In this document: positions 54,551-62,348 of the stretch, one piece after another | Numbering within the stretch: position 1 is the stretch's first letter | Layout of the letters: the number at the start of each line of letters is the position of its first letter | DNA from: Hephaestia sp. MAHUQ-44 | GTDB lineage: Bacteria; Pseudomonadota; Alphaproteobacteria; Sphingomonadales; Sphingomonadaceae | Length of the DNA: 64,000 nucleotides | Assembly: GCF_023806085.1 (NCBI RefSeq) | Contig: NZ_JAMSLX010000016.1 | Coordinates: 1 to 64,000, forward strand | Direction of reading: 5' to 3' | The notes under the pieces: model-generated | What the model saw: the letters and a program-made list of their open reading frames with translations, nothing else | The model's database searches: none | Told to the model about the DNA's origin: nothing | Made by a program: the position numbers and the translations under genes

Positions 54551-55192
54551 CTACGCGGCGCGCCCCCGCAACGCTGCAAAATCGTCCTCCACGCCAGCGG
54601 AAAAGGCGACATACAGCACTTCGGACAGGCTGCCCGCGTCGAGCTTTTCCATGATATTGGCGCGATAGACTTCGACCGTCCTCGGGCTGATCCCGAGATC
54701 GAGCGCGATCGACTTGTTCTGTTTTCCCGCCGCCAGCCCCTTCAAGACATCGAGTTCGCGCGGCGACAGCGAGGCGAGCCGCTCACGCGCGCGGTTGAAG
54801 CGCGGATCGGGCTGCTCCTGCTGCTCGAGTGATGCCAGCGCATCTTCGACCGCCCCGATCAAGGCCGAGGATTCGATCGGCTTTTCGAGGAAATTGGCCG
54901 CGCCAGCGCGTAACGCCCGCACTGCGGTTGCCACATCGCCATGCCCGGTAAGAATGATCGTCGCGATCGGCAATGCGCTCGCCTTGAGCGCATCGTGCAC
55001 ATCGAGCCCCGAAAGACCGGGCATTCGCATGTCGAGCAGCGCGCACGCCGGCCCGAACGCCGCCGCCCCCTCGAGAAAGGAAGCCCCGTCCGGCCATGGA
55101 TGAACATCGTACTGCGCCGTGCGCAGCATCATGCCGACGGCGTCGCGAATTGCCGGGTCGTCGTCGATGACGTGGACCGTCCGTGCTTGCAT
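54551..55192 (-). CDS. FixJ-like response regulator
   Basis: Two-component response regulator, 213 aa. The receiver has the acidic pair in VIDDDP, phospho-acceptor Asp54 (LLDMRMPG), and conserved Thr and Lys (ILTGHGD, FLEKPI); a LuxR-type HTH occupies about residues 145-205 (LSPRELDVLKGLAAGKQNKS; SPRTVEVYRANIMEKL). The start ATG at 55192 follows GGAG and lies inside the 3' end of the kinase gene, overlapping by 64 bases, so the pair is translationally linked. Targets are unknown; the curli operon lies divergently beyond the kinase. Confidence 0.9.
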   Translation of the reverse strand: MQARTVHVIDDDPAIRDAVGMMLRTAQYDVHPWPDGASFLEGAAAFGPACALLDMRMPGLSGLDVHDALKASALPIATIILTGHGDVATAVRALRAGAANFLEKPIESSALIGAVEDALASLEQQEQPDPRFNRARERLASLSPRELDVLKGLAAGKQNKSIALDLGISPRTVEVYRANIMEKLDAGSLSEVLYVAFSAGVEDDFAALRGRAA

Positions 55193-57117
55193 GGCATTTC
55201 TCCGCGCTCCGCGCGCCGCAGGGTGAAATGAAGCTCGGTGCCGCTGCCGATCCGGGTGCTTGCCCAGATCCGCCCGCCATGCACCTCGACGATCGTCCGA
55301 CAAATCGGCAGCCCGACACCCAGACCATTGGCCTTGGTACTGAAAAAAGTGTCGAACAGATGCACCTGTTCATCGGGTGAGAGACCCCGCCCGGTATCCG
55401 ACACAATGATCTCGGCGGTATCGTCATCGCGCGCGACCGCGCTCACCACCACCTTGCGCACCGGCGCGCCGCACACCGCATCGACGGCATTGCGCAGCAG
55501 GTTGAGCACCACCTGCTGGACCTGGATCTTGTCGACCAGCACTGCCCCCAGCCCCGGCTCGATCGACAGGTCGATCATTTTCGTCAGCCGTGGATCGCCC
55601 ATGCAGGCAAGGCTTTTGGCTTCGGCAAGCAGCCCGGCGAGATCCTCCTGCACGAATTCGATGTCGCGACGCGCCAGCATCTCGCGGGTGCGGCGGATGA
55701 TCGTGGCCGCGCGCAAAGCCTGGCTCGACGCACCAGCCAGCGCCTTGTCGAGATCGCTCGCACTGTCGGGCTGCTGCTTGCGCATCAGGTTGCGTGCCGC
55801 GCCGATATAGCTTTCGACCGCCGCCAGCGGCTGGTTGAGTTCATGCGCGAGCGTTGCGGCCATCGTTCCCATCGCGCTCACCCGCGACATATGGAGGATC
55901 TGCGCCTGGAGCGCCGCCAGCCGCGCGCGCGTCGCCGCCTCGCTGCTGAGATCACGGATGAAGCCGGTGAATTGAACATTCTCCCCCACCGCCGCCCGTC
56001 CGACCGTGATCTGGATCGGAAACACCGTCCCATCGACGCGGCGTCCGATACCATATTGCGATCCTATCTCGGCGAGCGCGCTGAACCGGAGCGCGTGCTC
56101 CTGTGTTTCGCCCGCGACCGATTTGAGCAACATCGAGGCATCACACCCCATGATGTCGGCCTCGGCATAACCGAACAGCGATTGCGCGACGCCGCTCACC
56201 GAAACGATCGTGCCCGCGTTGTCGGTAATGATCGTCGCTTCGGGCACGGTGGCAAGGATCGAACGCAACTGGCGTTCGCGAAGTTCGAGTTCTTCGGCGG
56301 CGCGTGCCTCGTCGGTCACATCCTCCATCACCAGCCCGAATCCGCGCAGGCCGCCATCATCGTCTAACAAGGCCGTCAGCGTGATATCGGCGATGAAGAT
56401 GCTTCCGTCCCTGCGTCGCCGGACATCGCGCGATCGGAACCGGCCCGATCGGCTCGCCGCCGCCAGCACGTGCTTCGCCTTGCCGGCGAGACGATCTGCA
56501 CTGGTGTAAACCAGATCGAAGCTCTGACCGATCGCCTCGCGGGCGGACCAGCCGGTGATTCGCTGAGCGCTTGGGCTCCACAGGGTGATCGTGCCATCGG
56601 CGTCGAGGAAATAGATCGCGTGATTCGCGGCAGCGTCGATCAGCAACGTCAGTTCGTCGATCATGACGCGCGCGTCGGCGGCCTGTTTGGTGGCCTGCCT
56701 GGTCGCCAGTTGCTGATCGGCAATCGCCTTGTCACGCCAGGCGAGGATCTGCCGCGTCAATACGACGATCCCCACCGAGACGATACCGAAGACCACCAGC
56801 CCCGGAATGTTAGCGCCATCCGTTTTGAACGACGAGACAAAGATCGTTCCGGCGATCGCGCCCAGAACAGCTGCGAAAATCGCCGCGCGGGTACCACGAA
56901 ACGCAGCAACGGCAAGGATTACCGGAAGGTAGAGCGTGTAGGGAACATGCGGATCGAGCCACGGCCCCAGCGCAATGCGGAGCAATGTCACGAGCAAAAT
57001 CGCGACGACAGACCACGCATATCTATCGACCACCAAGCGCAGCGCTACCATACCACTGCGATCGATCCGATCTGCAATACTCAAGCCGCCCCTGTACACG
57101 GCCTTTACTTGCGGCAT
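55129..57117 (-). CDS. FixL-like PAS sensor histidine kinase
   Basis: Membrane histidine kinase, 662 aa. Four hydrophobic helices (about 33-122) form a DUF4118-like anchor, followed by two PAS domains (about 155-270 and 283-395), a HisKA domain with phospho-acceptor His425 in LAHELNQPLAA, and an HATPase domain (VVLNLLRNAVDAV, DTGRGL, GLGVGLPICR). PAS2 resembles the FixL haem PAS (SLFGYAEADIMGCDASML ... GIGRRVDGTVFP), with His341 as a possible haem ligand, though the alignment needs small gaps. ATG at 57117 after AGGGG is preferred to TTG at 57123. It is paired with the overlapping FixJ-like gene. Confidence 0.88.
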   Translation of the reverse strand: MPQVKAVYRGGLSIADRIDRSGMVALRLVVDRYAWSVVAILLVTLLRIALGPWLDPHVPYTLYLPVILAVAAFRGTRAAIFAAVLGAIAGTIFVSSFKTDGANIPGLVVFGIVSVGIVVLTRQILAWRDKAIADQQLATRQATKQAADARVMIDELTLLIDAAANHAIYFLDADGTITLWSPSAQRITGWSAREAIGQSFDLVYTSADRLAGKAKHVLAAASRSGRFRSRDVRRRRDGSIFIADITLTALLDDDGGLRGFGLVMEDVTDEARAAEELELRERQLRSILATVPEATIITDNAGTIVSVSGVAQSLFGYAEADIMGCDASMLLKSVAGETQEHALRFSALAEIGSQYGIGRRVDGTVFPIQITVGRAAVGENVQFTGFIRDLSSEAATRARLAALQAQILHMSRVSAMGTMAATLAHELNQPLAAVESYIGAARNLMRKQQPDSASDLDKALAGASSQALRAATIIRRTREMLARRDIEFVQEDLAGLLAEAKSLACMGDPRLTKMIDLSIEPGLGAVLVDKIQVQQVVLNLLRNAVDAVCGAPVRKVVVSAVARDDDTAEIIVSDTGRGLSPDEQVHLFDTFFSTKANGLGVGLPICRTIVEVHGGRIWASTRIGSGTELHFTLRRAERGEMPCKHGRSTSSTTTRQFATPSA

Positions 57118-57467
57118 CGCCAATCCCCTGTTGTATGCGACACCCGCGACGCCTTACGTGACGCGCCGCTCATTGAGCACACCTTACGGCGATCTAGGGA
57201 TCATTACCATCCGTGACTTTACGGATAGGCGCCTTCGACTTTCGGCCATAGGATTTGCACGGAAAAGACATCCGGAGCGTCGTTTGCAGGGACGGCGCAC
57301 TCGTGGCCCGGCGCACGTGCCGGTTCGTAGGGGCAAAACCGGATATCCGGTCGCAACTGAATATCCGGTCGCGTCGGCATTGGCCGCCGGCGCGAGACGG
57401 CTGGCGTCGTTCGTTCGCAATTCGGCGCTGCACGATGACTGCACACGGCGGCGGTAACGGAGGGCTC
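57118..57467. promoter_or_regulatory. Divergent spacer between sensor kinase and csgF
   Basis: About 350 bases without a convincing gene. It holds the inverted repeat ATCCGT-gacttt-ACGGAT (57209-57226), the perfect 14-bp palindrome ACCGGATATCCGGT (57338-57351), and two direct copies of ATATCCGGTCGC 18 bases apart (57343 and 57361). These are good candidates for operators of the curli operon or the kinase pair. Confidence 0.5.
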
Positions 57468-57941
57468 ATGCGTATCTCGTTCAAGTCGATTGGCATTCCG
57501 GCCACCATCGCGGTGCTTCTCGGTGTCGCGATCGCCGAGCCGAGCCACGGGCAGGACATCGTCTACCAGCCGATCAACCCCAGCTTCGGGGGCAATCCCT
57601 TCAATTCCGCGCATCTGCTCGGCGTCGCCACCGCGCAGAACAAATATAAGGATCCCAATGCGACCTCGTCACAGGATCCGGCATCGCAATTTCTCCGCAC
57701 CTTGCAGAGCCGGCTGCTGTCGTCGCTCGCGACCCAGATCACCGACGTCATCTTCGGAGAGAATGCGCAGGACAGCGGCGTCATCCAGTTCGGCGATCAG
57801 GTGATTTCATTCGTTCGCGGGGTCGATTCGGTCACGCTGACGATCACCAACAACGCCGACGGATCGGTGACCGAGATCATCGTGCCGCTGTTGCAGGACA
57901 GCTCCGACGAGGGCGGGGTACTCGCTGGCCTCGGCCAATGA
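57468..57941 (+). CDS. csgF: Curli production assembly protein CsgF
   Basis: Secreted curli assembly factor, 157 aa, which in E. coli plugs the CsgG pore from outside and links it to the nucleator CsgB. After the signal peptide (ending EPSHG) the mature N-terminus DIVYQPINPSFGGNPFNSAH is the hallmark CsgG-binding peptide, followed by LLGVATAQNKYKDP. The start at 57468 has GGAGGG; the longer reading to 57255 is rejected. The stop overlaps csgG (ATGA). Confidence 0.93.
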   Translation: MRISFKSIGIPATIAVLLGVAIAEPSHGQDIVYQPINPSFGGNPFNSAHLLGVATAQNKYKDPNATSSQDPASQFLRTLQSRLLSSLATQITDVIFGENAQDSGVIQFGDQVISFVRGVDSVTLTITNNADGSVTEIIVPLLQDSSDEGGVLAGLGQ

Positions 57942-59218
57942 GTACCGCATCGGCCCGGCGCACCGCGCTCGCGGTGCTTGGCAGCGCGCTCGTGCTCACC
58001 GGCTGCGCGGCCAACAATCCATCGAGCTGGTCGAAGGCGCAGCCCACCAAGCGCACGCCGATGACAGTCAAGCTCGAACAGCTCCCCCTGCCGGGGGATC
58101 GGATCGCGGTCGCGGTCTACAATTTCGCGGACCAGACCGGGCAGTTCAAACCGACCGAAGGCGTCCAGACGCTGTCGCGCGCGGTGACGCAGGGGGCGAC
58201 CTCGATCCTCGTCAAGGCGCTCCAGGAAACGGGCAATCACGGCTGGTTCACGGTGATCGAACGCGAGCGGCTCGACAATCTGCTACGCGAGCGCGCCGTG
58301 ATCCGCGAGATGCGCGCCGCCTATCTCGGCGAGAAGACACTCAACCGGCAGGCGCTCCCGCCCCTGCTGTTCGCAGGCATCCTGCTCGAAGGCGGGATCA
58401 TCGGCTATGACAGCAACACCAAGTCGGGCGGGCTCGGCGCGCGTTTTCTGGGTATCGGCGGCAGCACGCAATATCGCGAAGATACCGTCACGGTCTATCT
58501 GCGCGCGGTAAGCGTCAAGACCGGCGAGGTGCTGTCGACCATCAGCGTGCGCAAATCAATCGCGTCGATCGGGCTCGATACCAACACCTTCCGTTATGTC
58601 GCGTTCAAGGATCTGCTCGAACTCGAGGCGGGGGTCGCATATAACGAACCCGACGCGCTCGCCTTGCAGCAAGCGATCGAAGCCGCGGTCTATGGCATGG
58701 TCATCGAAGGCGCGAGCACCGACCTGTGGTGCATCGCGACCACGCCGGAGGGCGGAGAAGCACTGCTGCGATCCTATTTCGCGCAGCGCGACAATATCGA
58801 TGAGGCCGCCGTGCTGCTGGCGCACCGTGCCGATGGCAGCACGATCACCGGCGCCTGCCCGCAGCGTTCCGCACTGCAACCGGCAGCGCGCGTCGCACAG
58901 CGCCCGATCGGTGCGGCGCTGGCCGCGGGAACGATGCCTGCCGGCGTATCACGCGCGACGCCGGCATACCGCATGCAATCTTCGCTCCGCAGCGCAGGCG
59001 CCACCACGGCGCCGGTGCGCGGGGCATCCCCATCGGTCGGGGTTTGGCCGTCGGGAGGCGTGGTGGCAGCCGCACCTACCCCGACGCGCCAGACGTCACC
59101 GGGTGGCGCCTCCGCGCCACCATCAACATCCGGTGGCCAGCGTACGCCGGTAGCTGGCGCGAGCCCCTCGGCAGAGCCCGGCACATCGGCAAAACAGCGC
59201 ATACCAGCAGGAGGATGA
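57938..59218 (+). CDS. csgG: Curli secretion channel CsgG with long C-terminal tail
   Basis: Outer-membrane lipoprotein forming the nonameric curlin export pore, 426 aa. The lipobox is LTGC (Cys23); the CsgG core covers residues about 30-280 (DRIAVAVYNFADQTGQFKP, GWFTVIERERLDNLLRER, VIEGASTDLW). E. coli CsgG is 277 residues in total and ends shortly after the DLW position, so about 145 residues here are extra. This tail is rich in Ala, Pro, Gly, Ser and Thr, appears disordered, and would lie in the periplasm. Translationally coupled to csgF. Confidence 0.92.
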   Translation: MSTASARRTALAVLGSALVLTGCAANNPSSWSKAQPTKRTPMTVKLEQLPLPGDRIAVAVYNFADQTGQFKPTEGVQTLSRAVTQGATSILVKALQETGNHGWFTVIERERLDNLLRERAVIREMRAAYLGEKTLNRQALPPLLFAGILLEGGIIGYDSNTKSGGLGARFLGIGGSTQYREDTVTVYLRAVSVKTGEVLSTISVRKSIASIGLDTNTFRYVAFKDLLELEAGVAYNEPDALALQQAIEAAVYGMVIEGASTDLWCIATTPEGGEALLRSYFAQRDNIDEAAVLLAHRADGSTITGACPQRSALQPAARVAQRPIGAALAAGTMPAGVSRATPAYRMQSSLRSAGATTAPVRGASPSVGVWPSGGVVAAAPTPTRQTSPGGASAPPSTSGGQRTPVAGASPSAEPGTSAKQRIPAGG

Positions 59219-59553
59219 TAGCCGAACCGGCTCCGACCGGTTGCAAAGATCAGGTCCACCGACACCCCGATTTGGCATCTTGATGCCGGTGGGCCCGGAA
59301 CGGTGAGGCTACGGGAGCCTCGCCAATCGTGAGCTACGCTCACCCCAGGATGGTGCGCCATCTTCGAGTGTTGCGCAAGGCGCGGTGACACATCCCGCTT
59401 CCCCGCCCGTGTGTCACCAACCCGCGCCCGCGAATTGTTGCTCCCGTCGTCAGTCAGGAGGCCGGTCCCGGCTGACGCGCGATCTCCGGCACTACGGGCG
59501 GCCAGTGTCGCCAGCGGGGGCGATGTCCGTACCCGCAACTAGGGAGAGTAAAG
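59219..59553 (+). promoter_or_regulatory. Leader before the large curlin gene
   Basis: A 335-base gap within the operon, without a convincing reading frame. It contains GAGGCT-acgg-AGCCTC-like pairing near 59308 and a 9-bp inverted repeat GGTGACACA (59384-59392) / TGTGTCACC (59410-59418). The length suggests a separate promoter and a long 5' untranslated region for the curlin gene. Confidence 0.45.
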
Positions 59554-60903
59554 ATGAAGAAGATGCTCATGGGCGCGGCATCGGTGATCGCCTTGTCGAT
59601 CGCCGTGCCTGCATTCGCCCAATCGACCAGCACGGTGAACCAGTCGAACACCGGCAACGGCGCGGTTGTCGACCAGACCGGCTCGATTTCGGGCGGTGAC
59701 TCGCTCGTCAATCAGAGCGGCGCCAACAACACCGCTGACGTGACGCAGGCCGACGACGGCTCGGGTTCCACGCCGCAGAACGTGTCCGATGTCGAACAGA
59801 CGGGCGACAATAATTCGGCGACCGTCAATCAGGACACCAGCACGTTCGCGATCCAATCACGCTCGTATATCGAGCAATCGGGCGACAATAACACCGCCGA
59901 CGTCACCCAGCTCGATGATTGGCAATCGTCCGACGTCATCCAGTCGAGCGACGGCAATTCGGCAACGGTGGTTCAAGGCGACGCGACCGCCGCGCTGACC
60001 GACGACAGTTATGGCAACACCAGCATGATCAACCAGGGCGGCGATGGCGGCCATGTCGCCGAAGTCACCCAGATCGGCCAGGGCAACGATTCGGATGTCA
60101 CGCAAACCGGCCTCAACGGTGAAGCCTATGTCACCCAAAGCGGCGACGACAATACGTCCTACATCCTTCAGGATGGCGAAAGCGTGGTCGCCACCGTCGA
60201 TCAATCGGGCAACGACAATAACAGCCTGATCGATCAGACCTCCCCCGGCGGCATTCGCCCGATCGATTCGTCGGCCTATGTCAGCCAGGCGGGCGACGAC
60301 AATTCGTCCGAAATCTATCAGCGCGCCAATGACGGCTATGCCGAAGTCATACAGAACGGCACCGACAGCACGGCGATGGTGTTGAACTACGGCAATCGCT
60401 CCGATGCCTATGTTCATCAGCTCGCGGGTGACGATAACAGCGCCACGATCGAGCAGCGCGCCGAGGATAGCGATGCGTTGATCGAACAGACCGGCGATCG
60501 CAACACCGCCAGCATCAACCAGCGCGAAGACAGCCCGCCGACCGAGAATTTCTCGGCGCAGATCTGGCAGTCCGGCAATGACGGCCAGTCGACGATCGAC
60601 CAGGATGGCGACAACAACTGGGCACAGAATGCGCAGACCGGCGATTTCGACGTATCGACGATCACCCAGACCGGCTCGGGCAGCTATGCCGGGGCGGGCC
60701 AATATGGCGACAACGATACCTCGACCATCACCCAGGCCGGCAGCGCGCAATATGCGCTGGTGCTCCAATATGGCGACAACAACAACTCGATGGTGGATCA
60801 GAGCGGCAACAACAATTCCGCTTACGTCACCCAGTGGACCGACGGGAACAGCTCGTGGGTGACCCAATCGGGGTCGGGTAACACCGCGACCGTCGCCCAA
60901 TAG
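59554..60903 (+). CDS. Large curlin-repeat amyloid subunit
   Basis: Secreted amyloid protein, 449 aa, with signal peptide MKKMLMGAASVIALSIAVPAFAQ. The mature part is almost entirely curlin-like repeats of the form (V/I)xQxGxxNxxxVxQ, roughly 18-20 units, e.g. YIEQSGDNNTADVTQ and YVTQSGDDNTSYILQ. Most known CsgA proteins have five repeats and about 150 residues, so this is about three times larger. It is strongly acidic (many Asp, few Lys/Arg), with Asp-rich turns. It is probably the main fibre subunit, secreted through CsgG. GGGAGAG precedes the ATG, and a strong terminator follows. Confidence 0.9.
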   Translation: MKKMLMGAASVIALSIAVPAFAQSTSTVNQSNTGNGAVVDQTGSISGGDSLVNQSGANNTADVTQADDGSGSTPQNVSDVEQTGDNNSATVNQDTSTFAIQSRSYIEQSGDNNTADVTQLDDWQSSDVIQSSDGNSATVVQGDATAALTDDSYGNTSMINQGGDGGHVAEVTQIGQGNDSDVTQTGLNGEAYVTQSGDDNTSYILQDGESVVATVDQSGNDNNSLIDQTSPGGIRPIDSSAYVSQAGDDNSSEIYQRANDGYAEVIQNGTDSTAMVLNYGNRSDAYVHQLAGDDNSATIEQRAEDSDALIEQTGDRNTASINQREDSPPTENFSAQIWQSGNDGQSTIDQDGDNNWAQNAQTGDFDVSTITQTGSGSYAGAGQYGDNDTSTITQAGSAQYALVLQYGDNNNSMVDQSGNNNSAYVTQWTDGNSSWVTQSGSGNTATVAQ

Positions 60904-60908
60904 CCCCC

Positions 60909-60950
60909 TGAGGGTCCGGGGCTCCCCTCGCCCCCGGACCCTCATTTTTT
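60909..60950 (+). terminator. Intrinsic terminator between curlin genes
   Basis: Thirteen-bp perfect arms (TGAGGGTCCGGGG / CCCCGGACCCTCA) with a ten-base loop and six T residues directly after. It lies five bases past the large curlin stop and just before the csgB-like gene, so it should reduce downstream transcription and favour the major subunit. Confidence 0.9.
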
Positions 60951-60965
60951 ACAGGAGGCCGTGCC

Positions 60966-61415
60966 ATGAAATATTGCTGCGCGCTTGCCGCGCTGATGCT
61001 GCCGATCGCCGCGTCCACGGCCCGGCCCGCCGCTGCGCAATCGGTCTCCATCGATCAGACCGGCAACGCCAACATTGCCGACAGCATCCAGGACAGCCCC
61101 GACCAGCGGCTGCTGGCAGCGATGAACGGCGACCCGAGCGGCGCCAATATCGCCATCATCAGCCAATCGGGCGTCGCGAACACGGCCTCGATCGAGCAGG
61201 TCGCGGCGAGCGGCGCCGCCAACGAGCTGACGCTAATTCAGGACGGCAACGACAATATCGCGGCCTTGTCGCAACAAGGCGCGGGCAACCATCTCGATGT
61301 GCGCCAATCGGGCGACATCAATGATGCAGCAATCACGCAATCGGGCTATGATCTGGGGCTCGTGATCAACCAGAGCGGCGGCGCCGCGATCGCCGTCACC
61401 CAGACGGGCTTCTGA
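60966..61415 (+). CDS. csgB: CsgB-like minor curlin
   Basis: Secreted curlin-repeat protein, 149 aa, the usual size of CsgA/CsgB. The signal peptide ends at RPAAAQ, followed by about five repeats (SIDQTGNANIADSIQ, IISQSGVANTASIEQ, LTLIQDGNDNIAALSQ, LDVRQSGDINDAAITQ, LVINQSGGAAIAVTQ). It lies after the large curlin and a terminator; a nucleator role is inferred from size and lower expected expression. ACAGGAGG is upstream. Confidence 0.85.
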   Translation: MKYCCALAALMLPIAASTARPAAAQSVSIDQTGNANIADSIQDSPDQRLLAAMNGDPSGANIAIISQSGVANTASIEQVAASGAANELTLIQDGNDNIAALSQQGAGNHLDVRQSGDINDAAITQSGYDLGLVINQSGGAAIAVTQTGF

Positions 61416-61417
61416 CG

Positions 61418-61972
61418 ATGCCGATGCCGGTCCCGATCATTCGCTTGTCGCTGGCGACAGCGCTGGCGACGAGCGCGCCCGCAGCGGCGCAGCAACCCAT
61501 CGATCCGGCGCAGCAGCGCATCGACCCCTCACCCAACGCCGACCTCCAGACCGACCAGGATCGCACCATCGCGGTGCGGCAGATCCCGCAGGAAAGCACG
61601 ACGCCGGCACGCCGCAACGCGGTCGAGCAGGTCGGCCAGGCCAAGAGCCCGCCCGCCGAGGTCGCACAACTGCCGGGCGACGCCGAGGCCCTGTCGACGG
61701 CAGCCGCGCCAGAATCCGAACTCGAACAGGCGACGCCCCGCTCTCCGCGCGCCGACCTCTATGCCGAGGTGGCCGCGGTGTGGGAGGTCATCCGCCGGCG
61801 CGGGCAGCAACCCACCCCCGAATTGATCGCGCGCGAGATCGGGCCCGACATGCTGGCGCGGTTCCTCAATACCTTTCCCGGCTCCGAAGGCATTTTCGGC
61901 ATCGATTCGGACCGGCTTCCGCTCAAGCCCCCGCCGGATCTGCCCGCCCCCGCCCCCGAGACCGGGGACTGA
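61418..61972 (+). CDS. Unrecognised secreted protein of the curli operon
   Basis: I do not recognise this 184-aa protein. It has an N-terminal signal-like segment (LSLATALATSAPAAAQQ), a polar, Gln/Pro/Ala-rich linker over residues 26-110, a compact helical stretch at about 110-160 (ADLYAEVAAVWEVIRRRGQQ; PTPELIAREIGPDMLARFLN), and a proline-rich end (LPLKPPPDLPAPAPE). No curlin repeats and no cysteines are seen. It starts two bases after the csgB-like stop and ends one base before csgH, so it is co-transcribed with curli genes and probably acts in the periplasm on curlin export, perhaps filling the place of CsgE. That function is a guess from position. Confidence 0.7.
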   Translation: MPMPVPIIRLSLATALATSAPAAAQQPIDPAQQRIDPSPNADLQTDQDRTIAVRQIPQESTTPARRNAVEQVGQAKSPPAEVAQLPGDAEALSTAAAPESELEQATPRSPRADLYAEVAAVWEVIRRRGQQPTPELIAREIGPDMLARFLNTFPGSEGIFGIDSDRLPLKPPPDLPAPAPETGD

Positions 61973-61973
61973 C

Positions 61974-62348
61974 ATGCGGCCGGTCGCGGTTCTGGTCTGG
62001 CTTGCGGCACTGGGCGTCGCCTCGGCATCCATCGGCGCATCGGCACAGGAACGAACCATGGCAGCACCATCGAACCGCGCGGTCGACATGACCGTCACAC
62101 GCGACAACAATATGGTCGTCGTCAACGTGGTCGGCCGCAGCGAGACACCCAAATCGGTCAGCTTCACGATCGATGTCGAGGGCGCCTCGACGACACGCAA
62201 CCTCGCCCGCGGCACGATCGGCCCCGATTCAAAAACGCTGTCGGTGGTGCGTTTCGCGGACATCGCACCGTGGCGGGTCACGCTCGACGTCGACGAACAA
62301 GGCGCCGATCATTACACGCTGCACGTCTCCGACAAGACGCTCGACTGA
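61974..62348 (+). CDS. csgH: Curli chaperone CsgH
   Basis: Periplasmic inhibitor of premature amyloid formation, 124 aa, the alphaproteobacterial counterpart of CsgC. A signal peptide (ending GASAQ) precedes a beta-rich Ig-like domain (NMVVVNVVGRSETPKSVSFTIDVEG; WRVTLDVDEQGADHYTLHV). Size, signal and location fit CsgH as described in Rhodopseudomonas-type curli systems. Last gene of the operon. A weak hairpin CCGGGC/GCCCGG at 62356-62376 may end the transcript. Confidence 0.8.
   Translation: MRPVAVLVWLAALGVASASIGASAQERTMAAPSNRAVDMTVTRDNNMVVVNVVGRSETPKSVSFTIDVEGASTTRNLARGTIGPDSKTLSVVRFADIAPWRVTLDVDEQGADHYTLHVSDKTLD

Follow-up and report, generated by a model that had tools for sequence, protein, structure and literature searches.

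A conserved gene between the minor curlin and csgH genes of sphingomonad curli operons as a candidate for a curli accessory protein

What does the small gene lodged between the minor curlin gene and csgH contribute to the curli operon of Hephaestia sp. MAHUQ-44 (Sphingomonadaceae), and does it bear on the export of curlins through the outer-membrane channel CsgG? In this study, we explored a window of 64,000 nucleotides (the whole stretch of DNA analysed, positions 1 to 64,000 of contig NZ_JAMSLX010000016.1), for which a preliminary description had reported a curli-like operon lacking CsgE and carrying one additional gene. From open reading frames (ORFs) and family searches, six contiguous genes spanning 57468-62348, all on the + strand, could be confirmed. 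The additional gene, here called X (61418..61972, + strand, 184 aa), is separated from the csgB-like curlin gene by 2 bases and from the csgH-like gene by 1 base, precisely as described, and homologues are found at the same position in other genomes. Its nomination as a strong candidate for a new curli component stands, since its position is conserved, it is tied to curli, it is constrained and it is unannotated.

X occurs in at least two sequence types, X1, to which the gene in the window belongs, and X2, which comprises most of the others. Searches for csgF were positive in 7/151 genomes of the genus and in 46/396 genomes of the order (Sphingomonadales), two of them shared, for a total of 51 genomes; since G473 has two operons, the csgF loci number 52, and 50 of these were read, leaving G249 (partial csgF) and G206 (weak csgF) unread. 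X lies directly after the last curlin gene in 46 of the 52 loci, being of type X1 in five, of type X2 in 35 (profile expectation value, E, below 1e-20) and recognised by eye from position and motif in six (G142, G036, G366, G470, G408, G520). Besides the two unread loci, the remainder consists of a contig end (G013), a genome from a different family of the order (G054), an atypical operon (G334) and a csgF-X2 fusion (G394). In the latter, a 212-residue ORF (L082 5286-5921) joins a CsgF start to the C-terminal part of an X2 and has no csgG or curlin match within 16 kb; it looks like the remnant of an operon deletion.

Within the draw of 396 genomes of the order, an X2 profile matched in 35 of the 46 csgF-positive genomes, the G394 remnant included, and in none of the 350 csgF-negative ones (Fisher 8e-41, the genomes being related). 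Six candidates were scored per genome in this search, with misses possible, and the draws for csgF and X2 contain the same genomes as far as they can be compared. The X1 search of 397 genomes of the family, with eight candidates scored per genome and misses likewise possible, matched in three, all beside a curlin, and in 2/61 relatives. A species-wide scan for X1, covering one genome for each of 84,980 species and requiring one of two conserved patterns, returned 11 loci, all from sphingomonads (Hephaestia caeni, Sphingopyxis, Erythrobacter, Sphingomonas), three of them from genomes in the count above. Adding the window, G473 and two further genomes brings the number of X1 loci to 15: a curlin gene precedes X in all 15 and a csgH match follows in 14, the exception being a short locus without one (L104). 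All of these counts include related sequences and are not independent.

No X was found by profile outside the order, where the check covered five csgF loci at class level and curli loci on Azospirillum, Aureimonas and Rhizobium plasmids, an Indioceanicola plasmid stretch remaining unread. X2 profile matches at E 0.008 and 0.01 there fell on a curlin-like ORF and an unrelated exported protein and were taken as chance, and in Aureimonas a curlin-like gene occupies the position ahead of csgH. As a separate observation, a Rhizobium plasmid (L121 4951-5556) encodes a hypothetical protein between csgH and csgF with AYVAQIP, the motif form of X discussed below, near its likely mature start, followed by curlin-like repeats.

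The protein itself could not be placed in any known family. Window X has no Pfam match at E up to 1 and a single NCBIfam match at E 0.99, 12 X1 proteins have no Pfam match at E up to 1, and six X2 proteins give only weak Pfam and NCBIfam matches; membership in CsgE, the curlins or any other Pfam or NCBIfam family was rejected, the X1 proteins matching neither PF10627 nor PF07012. Sequence searches against the PDB gave nothing clear (best E 0.84 and 0.2), and fold searches reached a best E of 4.1 and a best Z of 4.9, with several helix-turn-helix and winged-helix domains among the matches, which common helical arrangements can give, and X looks exported. From N- to C-terminus, X is read as a likely export signal (approximately residues 1-25, by eye), a disordered half, a helical core and a proline-rich tail, and it is probably exported. 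The AlphaFold2 model, run with 12 X1 sequences (mean predicted local distance difference test, pLDDT, of 64.0; predicted template modelling score of 0.37), leaves residues 1-109 without structure and predicts helices at 110-127, 134-141, 143-152 and 156-160. This core (residues 110-160, 61745..61897, + strand), which contains RGQQPTPELIAREIGP, shows pLDDT block means of 84-93 over residues 111-160.

X1 is under purifying selection. Compared with Hephaestia caeni, the nonsynonymous and synonymous rates (dN, dS) of X are 0.207 and 0.775 (dN/dS 0.27), and those of its 50-residue core 0.037 and 0.614 (dN/dS 0.06); for the adjacent csgH they are 0.24 and 0.642 (dN/dS 0.37). Three Sphingomonas pairs give the same picture of selection for X. 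The N-terminal half diverges fast, and at positions 21-97 only two residues, Q55 and Q84, are invariant in 12/12 X1 proteins. Both belong to copies of a short V-x-Q motif, VRQI at residues 53-56 (61574..61585) and VAQL at residues 82-85 (61661..61672), and a motif scan places a third copy, VEQV, between them at residues 69-72 (61622..61633), all on the + strand.

The pattern [VIL]xQ[VIL] is strongly enriched in both types of X. It occurs 27 times in 15 X1 proteins, where shuffling predicts 4.8 (maximum over 1000 shuffles, 14), and 67 times in 28 X2 proteins, where it predicts 13.9 (maximum, 28), while 39 CsgH domains hold five copies at 7.5 expected. Two to four motifs, mostly internal and between residues 23 and 96, are present in 14/15 X1 proteins, spaced by 13-16 residues (9/20) or 20-30 residues (9/20), and some relatives of X read AVPQLG or AVPQVG. 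This form resembles the tag by which curlins dock: CsgG binds Val3, Gln5 and Tyr6 of mature E. coli CsgA (VVPQYG) in nine crevices, and CsgA V3D and Q5A lose the Congo red phenotype, while Y6A reduces it (PMC6957492, in the part available); the same three residues are named in the accessible part of PMC7217966. The likeness of X to this N-terminal tag (N22/N6, GVVPQY) lies in the order hydrophobic-x-Gln-hydrophobic; however, CsgA has one copy at its mature N-terminus, while X has several, mostly internal, and no curlin repeats.

The receiving side is conserved in part. The Val3 pocket of CsgG (E. coli I121, L172, L236, W237) is identical in the window CsgG (I148, L199, L263, W264), which aligns to the solved E. 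coli CsgG with E 2e-53, and it reads I/V, L/M, L, W in 57/57 CsgGs of X-bearing lineages, while its first and third positions vary in eight CsgGs without X.

We therefore tentatively favour, at odds short of even, a model in which X is a dedicated sphingomonad curli accessory protein with multivalent docking on the periplasmic side of CsgG. X would be exported by the Sec route, its repeated motifs would imitate the CsgG-docking tag of curlins, and it would be placed at the periplasmic rim of CsgG, whose nine identical crevices would allow several motifs to dock at once. The helical core might then regulate curlin entry into the channel, a job resembling that of CsgE carried out by a different protein. 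Several internal motif copies suit a ligand that binds a nine-fold ring at multiple points better than they suit a secretion tag. In its wider form, which we consider more doubtful, X would stand for an undescribed, fast-evolving class of periplasmic factors that display several copies of the curlin docking tag, occupy the nine crevices of CsgG and, as substrate mimics, gate curlin export in a lineage that has no CsgE, with differing cores (X1, X2 and others) fitted to one docking scheme.

Several observations weigh against this model. Aligned by hhalign, X1 and X2 reach a probability of only 20% over 22 columns, all in the motif stretch, and window X is matched by the X2 profile at E ~0.003, which does not surpass its matches to curlin ORFs. 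The motif is also less close to the cargo of these operons than to that of E. coli. Among 191 curlin N-termini, located by a simple pattern that places some mature ends wrongly, major-type curlins begin with V-x-Q, yet have a hydrophobic residue after the Gln in 10/120, and the window curlins lack it (VNQS, IDQT). In csgB-like curlins (<260 residues), this residue is hydrophobic in 25/49 first motifs and 97/737 later ones. X consequently shares its motif form with E. coli CsgA and roughly half of the minor curlins, and not with the main cargo here. In addition, V-x-Q also ends curlin strands, 4/28 X2 proteins have no motif after residue 20, and some X2 motifs (LAQLS, NQLGG) sit in stretches that read as helix, so that the X2 count overstates the docking sites. 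Of the other CsgG contacts, T31, G32 and D238 correspond to G, D and C in the window CsgG and are unconserved, and the pocket mapping assumes mature E. coli CsgG numbering with an offset of 15, which we inferred. Export of X was judged by eye and by simple patterns, with 5/15 X1 proteins lacking even a loose AxA pattern, and CsgE loss occurs without X elsewhere.

The alternative that survives best, though we regard it as unlikely, is that X is itself a substrate of CsgG, using V-x-Q as its own secretion tag and acting at the cell surface as an anchor or nucleation partner of CsgB and CsgF. The motif form of X opens about half of the csgB-like curlins, as counted above, its gene comes immediately behind that of the last curlin, and a chain without fixed structure would thread through the pore. 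For this purpose, however, a single tag at the N-terminus would be enough, whereas nearly all X1 proteins carry two to four mostly internal copies; the model predicts a folded, helical core, and 6/15 X1 proteins fit a loose lipoprotein pattern that would tether them, although window X does not. As for the proposed partner, CsgF is, as proposed for X, a curli accessory; it binds CsgG, and its C-terminal part is flexible (PMC6957492, available part), but no similarity of CsgF to X was found, and CsgF is present in the operon as well.

Somewhat less probable still is a role of X as a periplasmic amyloid inhibitor, in which V-x-Q would imitate curlin strands and cap unfolded curlins, a task like that of CsgC and CsgH. 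The resemblance of the motif to the end of a curlin strand speaks for it, as do the weak matches of the X2 profile to curlin ORFs (from about E 1e-4 upwards) and the six X2-bearing genomes in which csgH was not found. Against it, the residue after the Gln is hydrophobic in 36/57 X1 and 76/150 X2 motifs but in only 795/5604 later curlin strands, the X1 motif spacing departs from the 11 residues (by eye) between curlin strands, and most X operons read already hold a csgH match. The amyloid-inhibiting chaperones CsgH and CsgC are small accessories, as X would be, and CsgH is encoded next to X in most operons read; however, CsgH is all-beta, whereas the X1 core is predicted to be helical, and X2 persists where csgH was not found.

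The absence of CsgE, which the preliminary description had pointed out, holds for this organism: CsgE (PF10627), which serves CsgG as a periplasmic adaptor in E. coli, was not found in the genome of the window (rated 100% complete, 46 contigs), with an E. coli control detected. It is not a special feature of the locus, though, being general in Alphaproteobacteria. CsgE reached the cut-off in 0/51 csgF-positive genomes of the order, with six matches below cut-off at E 0.175 to 0.92, and gave no match at E up to 0.1 in six other alphaproteobacterial genomes, two more sphingomonads and six plasmid records, a set in which several curli operons hold no X. That csgE is lacking in Alphaproteobacteria was stated by Dueholm et al. 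in 2012 (PMC3521004, in the part available). Since CsgE was not found in genomes without X either, its loss alone does not call for X, and we rejected the absence as an argument for X. The combination that would have counted against X as a candidate, a CsgE gene elsewhere in the genome and an X not conserved in curli operons, was not found.

For the same reason it is improbable that X directly replaces CsgE in function, as a cap at the periplasmic mouth of CsgG that evolved in response to the loss of CsgE. CsgE was indeed not found in any X genome searched for it, and X is probably exported, but CsgE was equally not found in the X-less genomes G843, G930, G1093 and G814 or in the X-less Azospirillum and Aureimonas plasmid records (chromosomes not searched), and X has no CsgE match in Pfam. 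The two proteins share the proposed site at the periplasmic face of CsgG and would both be accessories encoded with curli genes. They differ in that no sequence match between CsgE and X exists, in the predicted architecture of X1, a long disordered region with a small helical core, and in gene order, X being encoded with the curlins and not with csgFG; moreover, among the genomes searched for both, none was found to have the two together. It is very improbable that X is a passenger frame that plays no part in curli: its N-terminal half does diverge fast, but the purifying selection on the core, the constant position, the co-occurrence with curli and the invariant Q55 and Q84 speak against it.

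Regarding its ancestry, the types of X follow the operon lineage, as judged from sequence. In a CsgG tree of 65 rows, one side of a branch (98/91) consists of the 13 X1 rows, which join three X3 rows (96/97), with a long-branch warning near X3. G473 carries one operon of each lineage, and X2 aligns to the group labelled Xd by hhalign with 94.3% probability (E 1e-7, 177 columns).

The gene following X (61974..62348, + strand, 124 aa) is csgH-like by fold, according to its model. Against NCBIfam NF041112 it scores 24.4 bits at a cut-off of 35, and a PDB sequence search with its profile returned no CsgH or CsgC match (best E 0.034). The AlphaFold2 model (mean pLDDT 80.2, at least 90 in 77/124 residues) shows 7 strands, and its top two PDB matches in Foldseek are CsgH (2n59, E 4.3e-5) and CsgC (2xsk, 7.1e-5). 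CsgH-like proteins have been defined by two cysteines far apart in sequence (PMC4838910, in the part available); the protein in the window has no cysteine, and its Erythrobacter relatives (L094, L095) have two. csgH was not found in the six X2 genomes mentioned above (G423, G301, G466, G398, G370, G317), with four genomes known to hold csgH detected as controls, and these six (loci L046-L050 and L056) form one clade in another CsgG tree (100/98). G142, G470, G408 and G520 gave no csgH match either. Divergent csgH genes may escape the profile, since in a Sphingobium relative of G470 and G408 the place of csgH is taken by a small gene (P0006). This relative is the plasmid AP027335 (60 kb; L132 22-3234 with L118), whose curli-like operon is annotated solely as hypothetical proteins and spans the record start; in it, P0006 and a further curlin-like gene come after a divergent X (P0005).

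Turning to the other genes of the operon, csgF (57468..57941, 157 aa, Pfam PF10614 E 4.7e-32) and csgG (57938..59218, 426 aa, Pfam PF03783 E 2.2e-57), which encodes the outer-membrane curli channel, lie on the + strand with reading frames overlapping by 4 bases. csgG is the sole PF03783 match in the genome, and its product ends in a proline- and alanine-rich extension of about 140 residues past the part aligned to E. coli CsgG. The major curlin gene, curlin A (59554..60903, + strand, 449 aa), has 15 PF07012 stretches (E 2.4e-43), and the minor, csgB-like curlin B (60966..61415, + strand, 149 aa) has three (E 1.4e-11). The CsgG channel, CsgF and curlin-repeat subunits in two genes are all present, which makes this a curli (type VIII) system, while CsgE, which belongs to the enterobacterial form of curli, was not found.

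Between the two curlin genes, a GC-rich hairpin (60910..60943, + strand) is followed by TTTTTT (60945-60950), and RNA folding of 60900-60965 gave -33.8 kcal/mol with a z-score of -3.55 against shuffled sequence, a control made for the window alone. In 13/13 X1 loci, the interval separating the major from the minor curlin gene holds a long GC-rich hairpin whose arms differ in sequence. This hairpin could make csgB, X and csgH less strongly expressed than the major curlin and may thereby set subunit ratios. Consensus scans listed three promoter-like sites, compared with a shuffled mean of 1.0 (standard deviation 1.1), and three terminator-like sites, compared with 3.4 in shuffled sequence; the hairpin at 60910 is not among the latter, its loop perhaps being disallowed by the scan.

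Upstream of the operon, a PAS sensor histidine kinase (55129..57123, - strand; Pfam PAS, HisKA, HATPase_c) is divergent from csgF, next to a FixJ-like response regulator with a receiver and a LuxR-type helix-turn-helix (54551..55303, - strand), labelled from reading the sequence. A homologue of one or both adjoins 11/13 X1 operons with enough flank, the two Erythrobacter loci being the exceptions; beside X2 operons, whose downstream flanks are shorter, none was seen apart from one weak regulator match. This pair is a candidate for the regulatory job of CsgD. Homologues of one or both also lie near the curli locus of G843 (L111). Separately, LuxR-type helix-turn-helix regulators, read by eye, are encoded downstream of the curli genes in L051, L055, L048, L069 and L079, possibly another CsgD-like arrangement in sphingomonads.

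X itself seems to be undescribed; the absence of CsgE from Alphaproteobacteria was already known. A literature search covering few subscription journals and no supplements turned up no report of such a protein, and two surveys of curli operons (PMC3521004 and PMC10192328) mention no gene at the place of X in the parts covered. The authors who named csgH noted in 2012 that, where Csg proteins are missing, other proteins must take over their roles (PMC3521004, available part). How curlins are delivered to CsgG without CsgE is a question in the Alphaproteobacteria, and for one order X now offers a definite, conserved candidate, whose motif lends itself to residue-wise testing against the solved crevice of CsgG. 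If the proposed docking is true, the substrate site of CsgG would be usable by a regulator, beyond its cargo, and it would point to short peptides that may block curli export.

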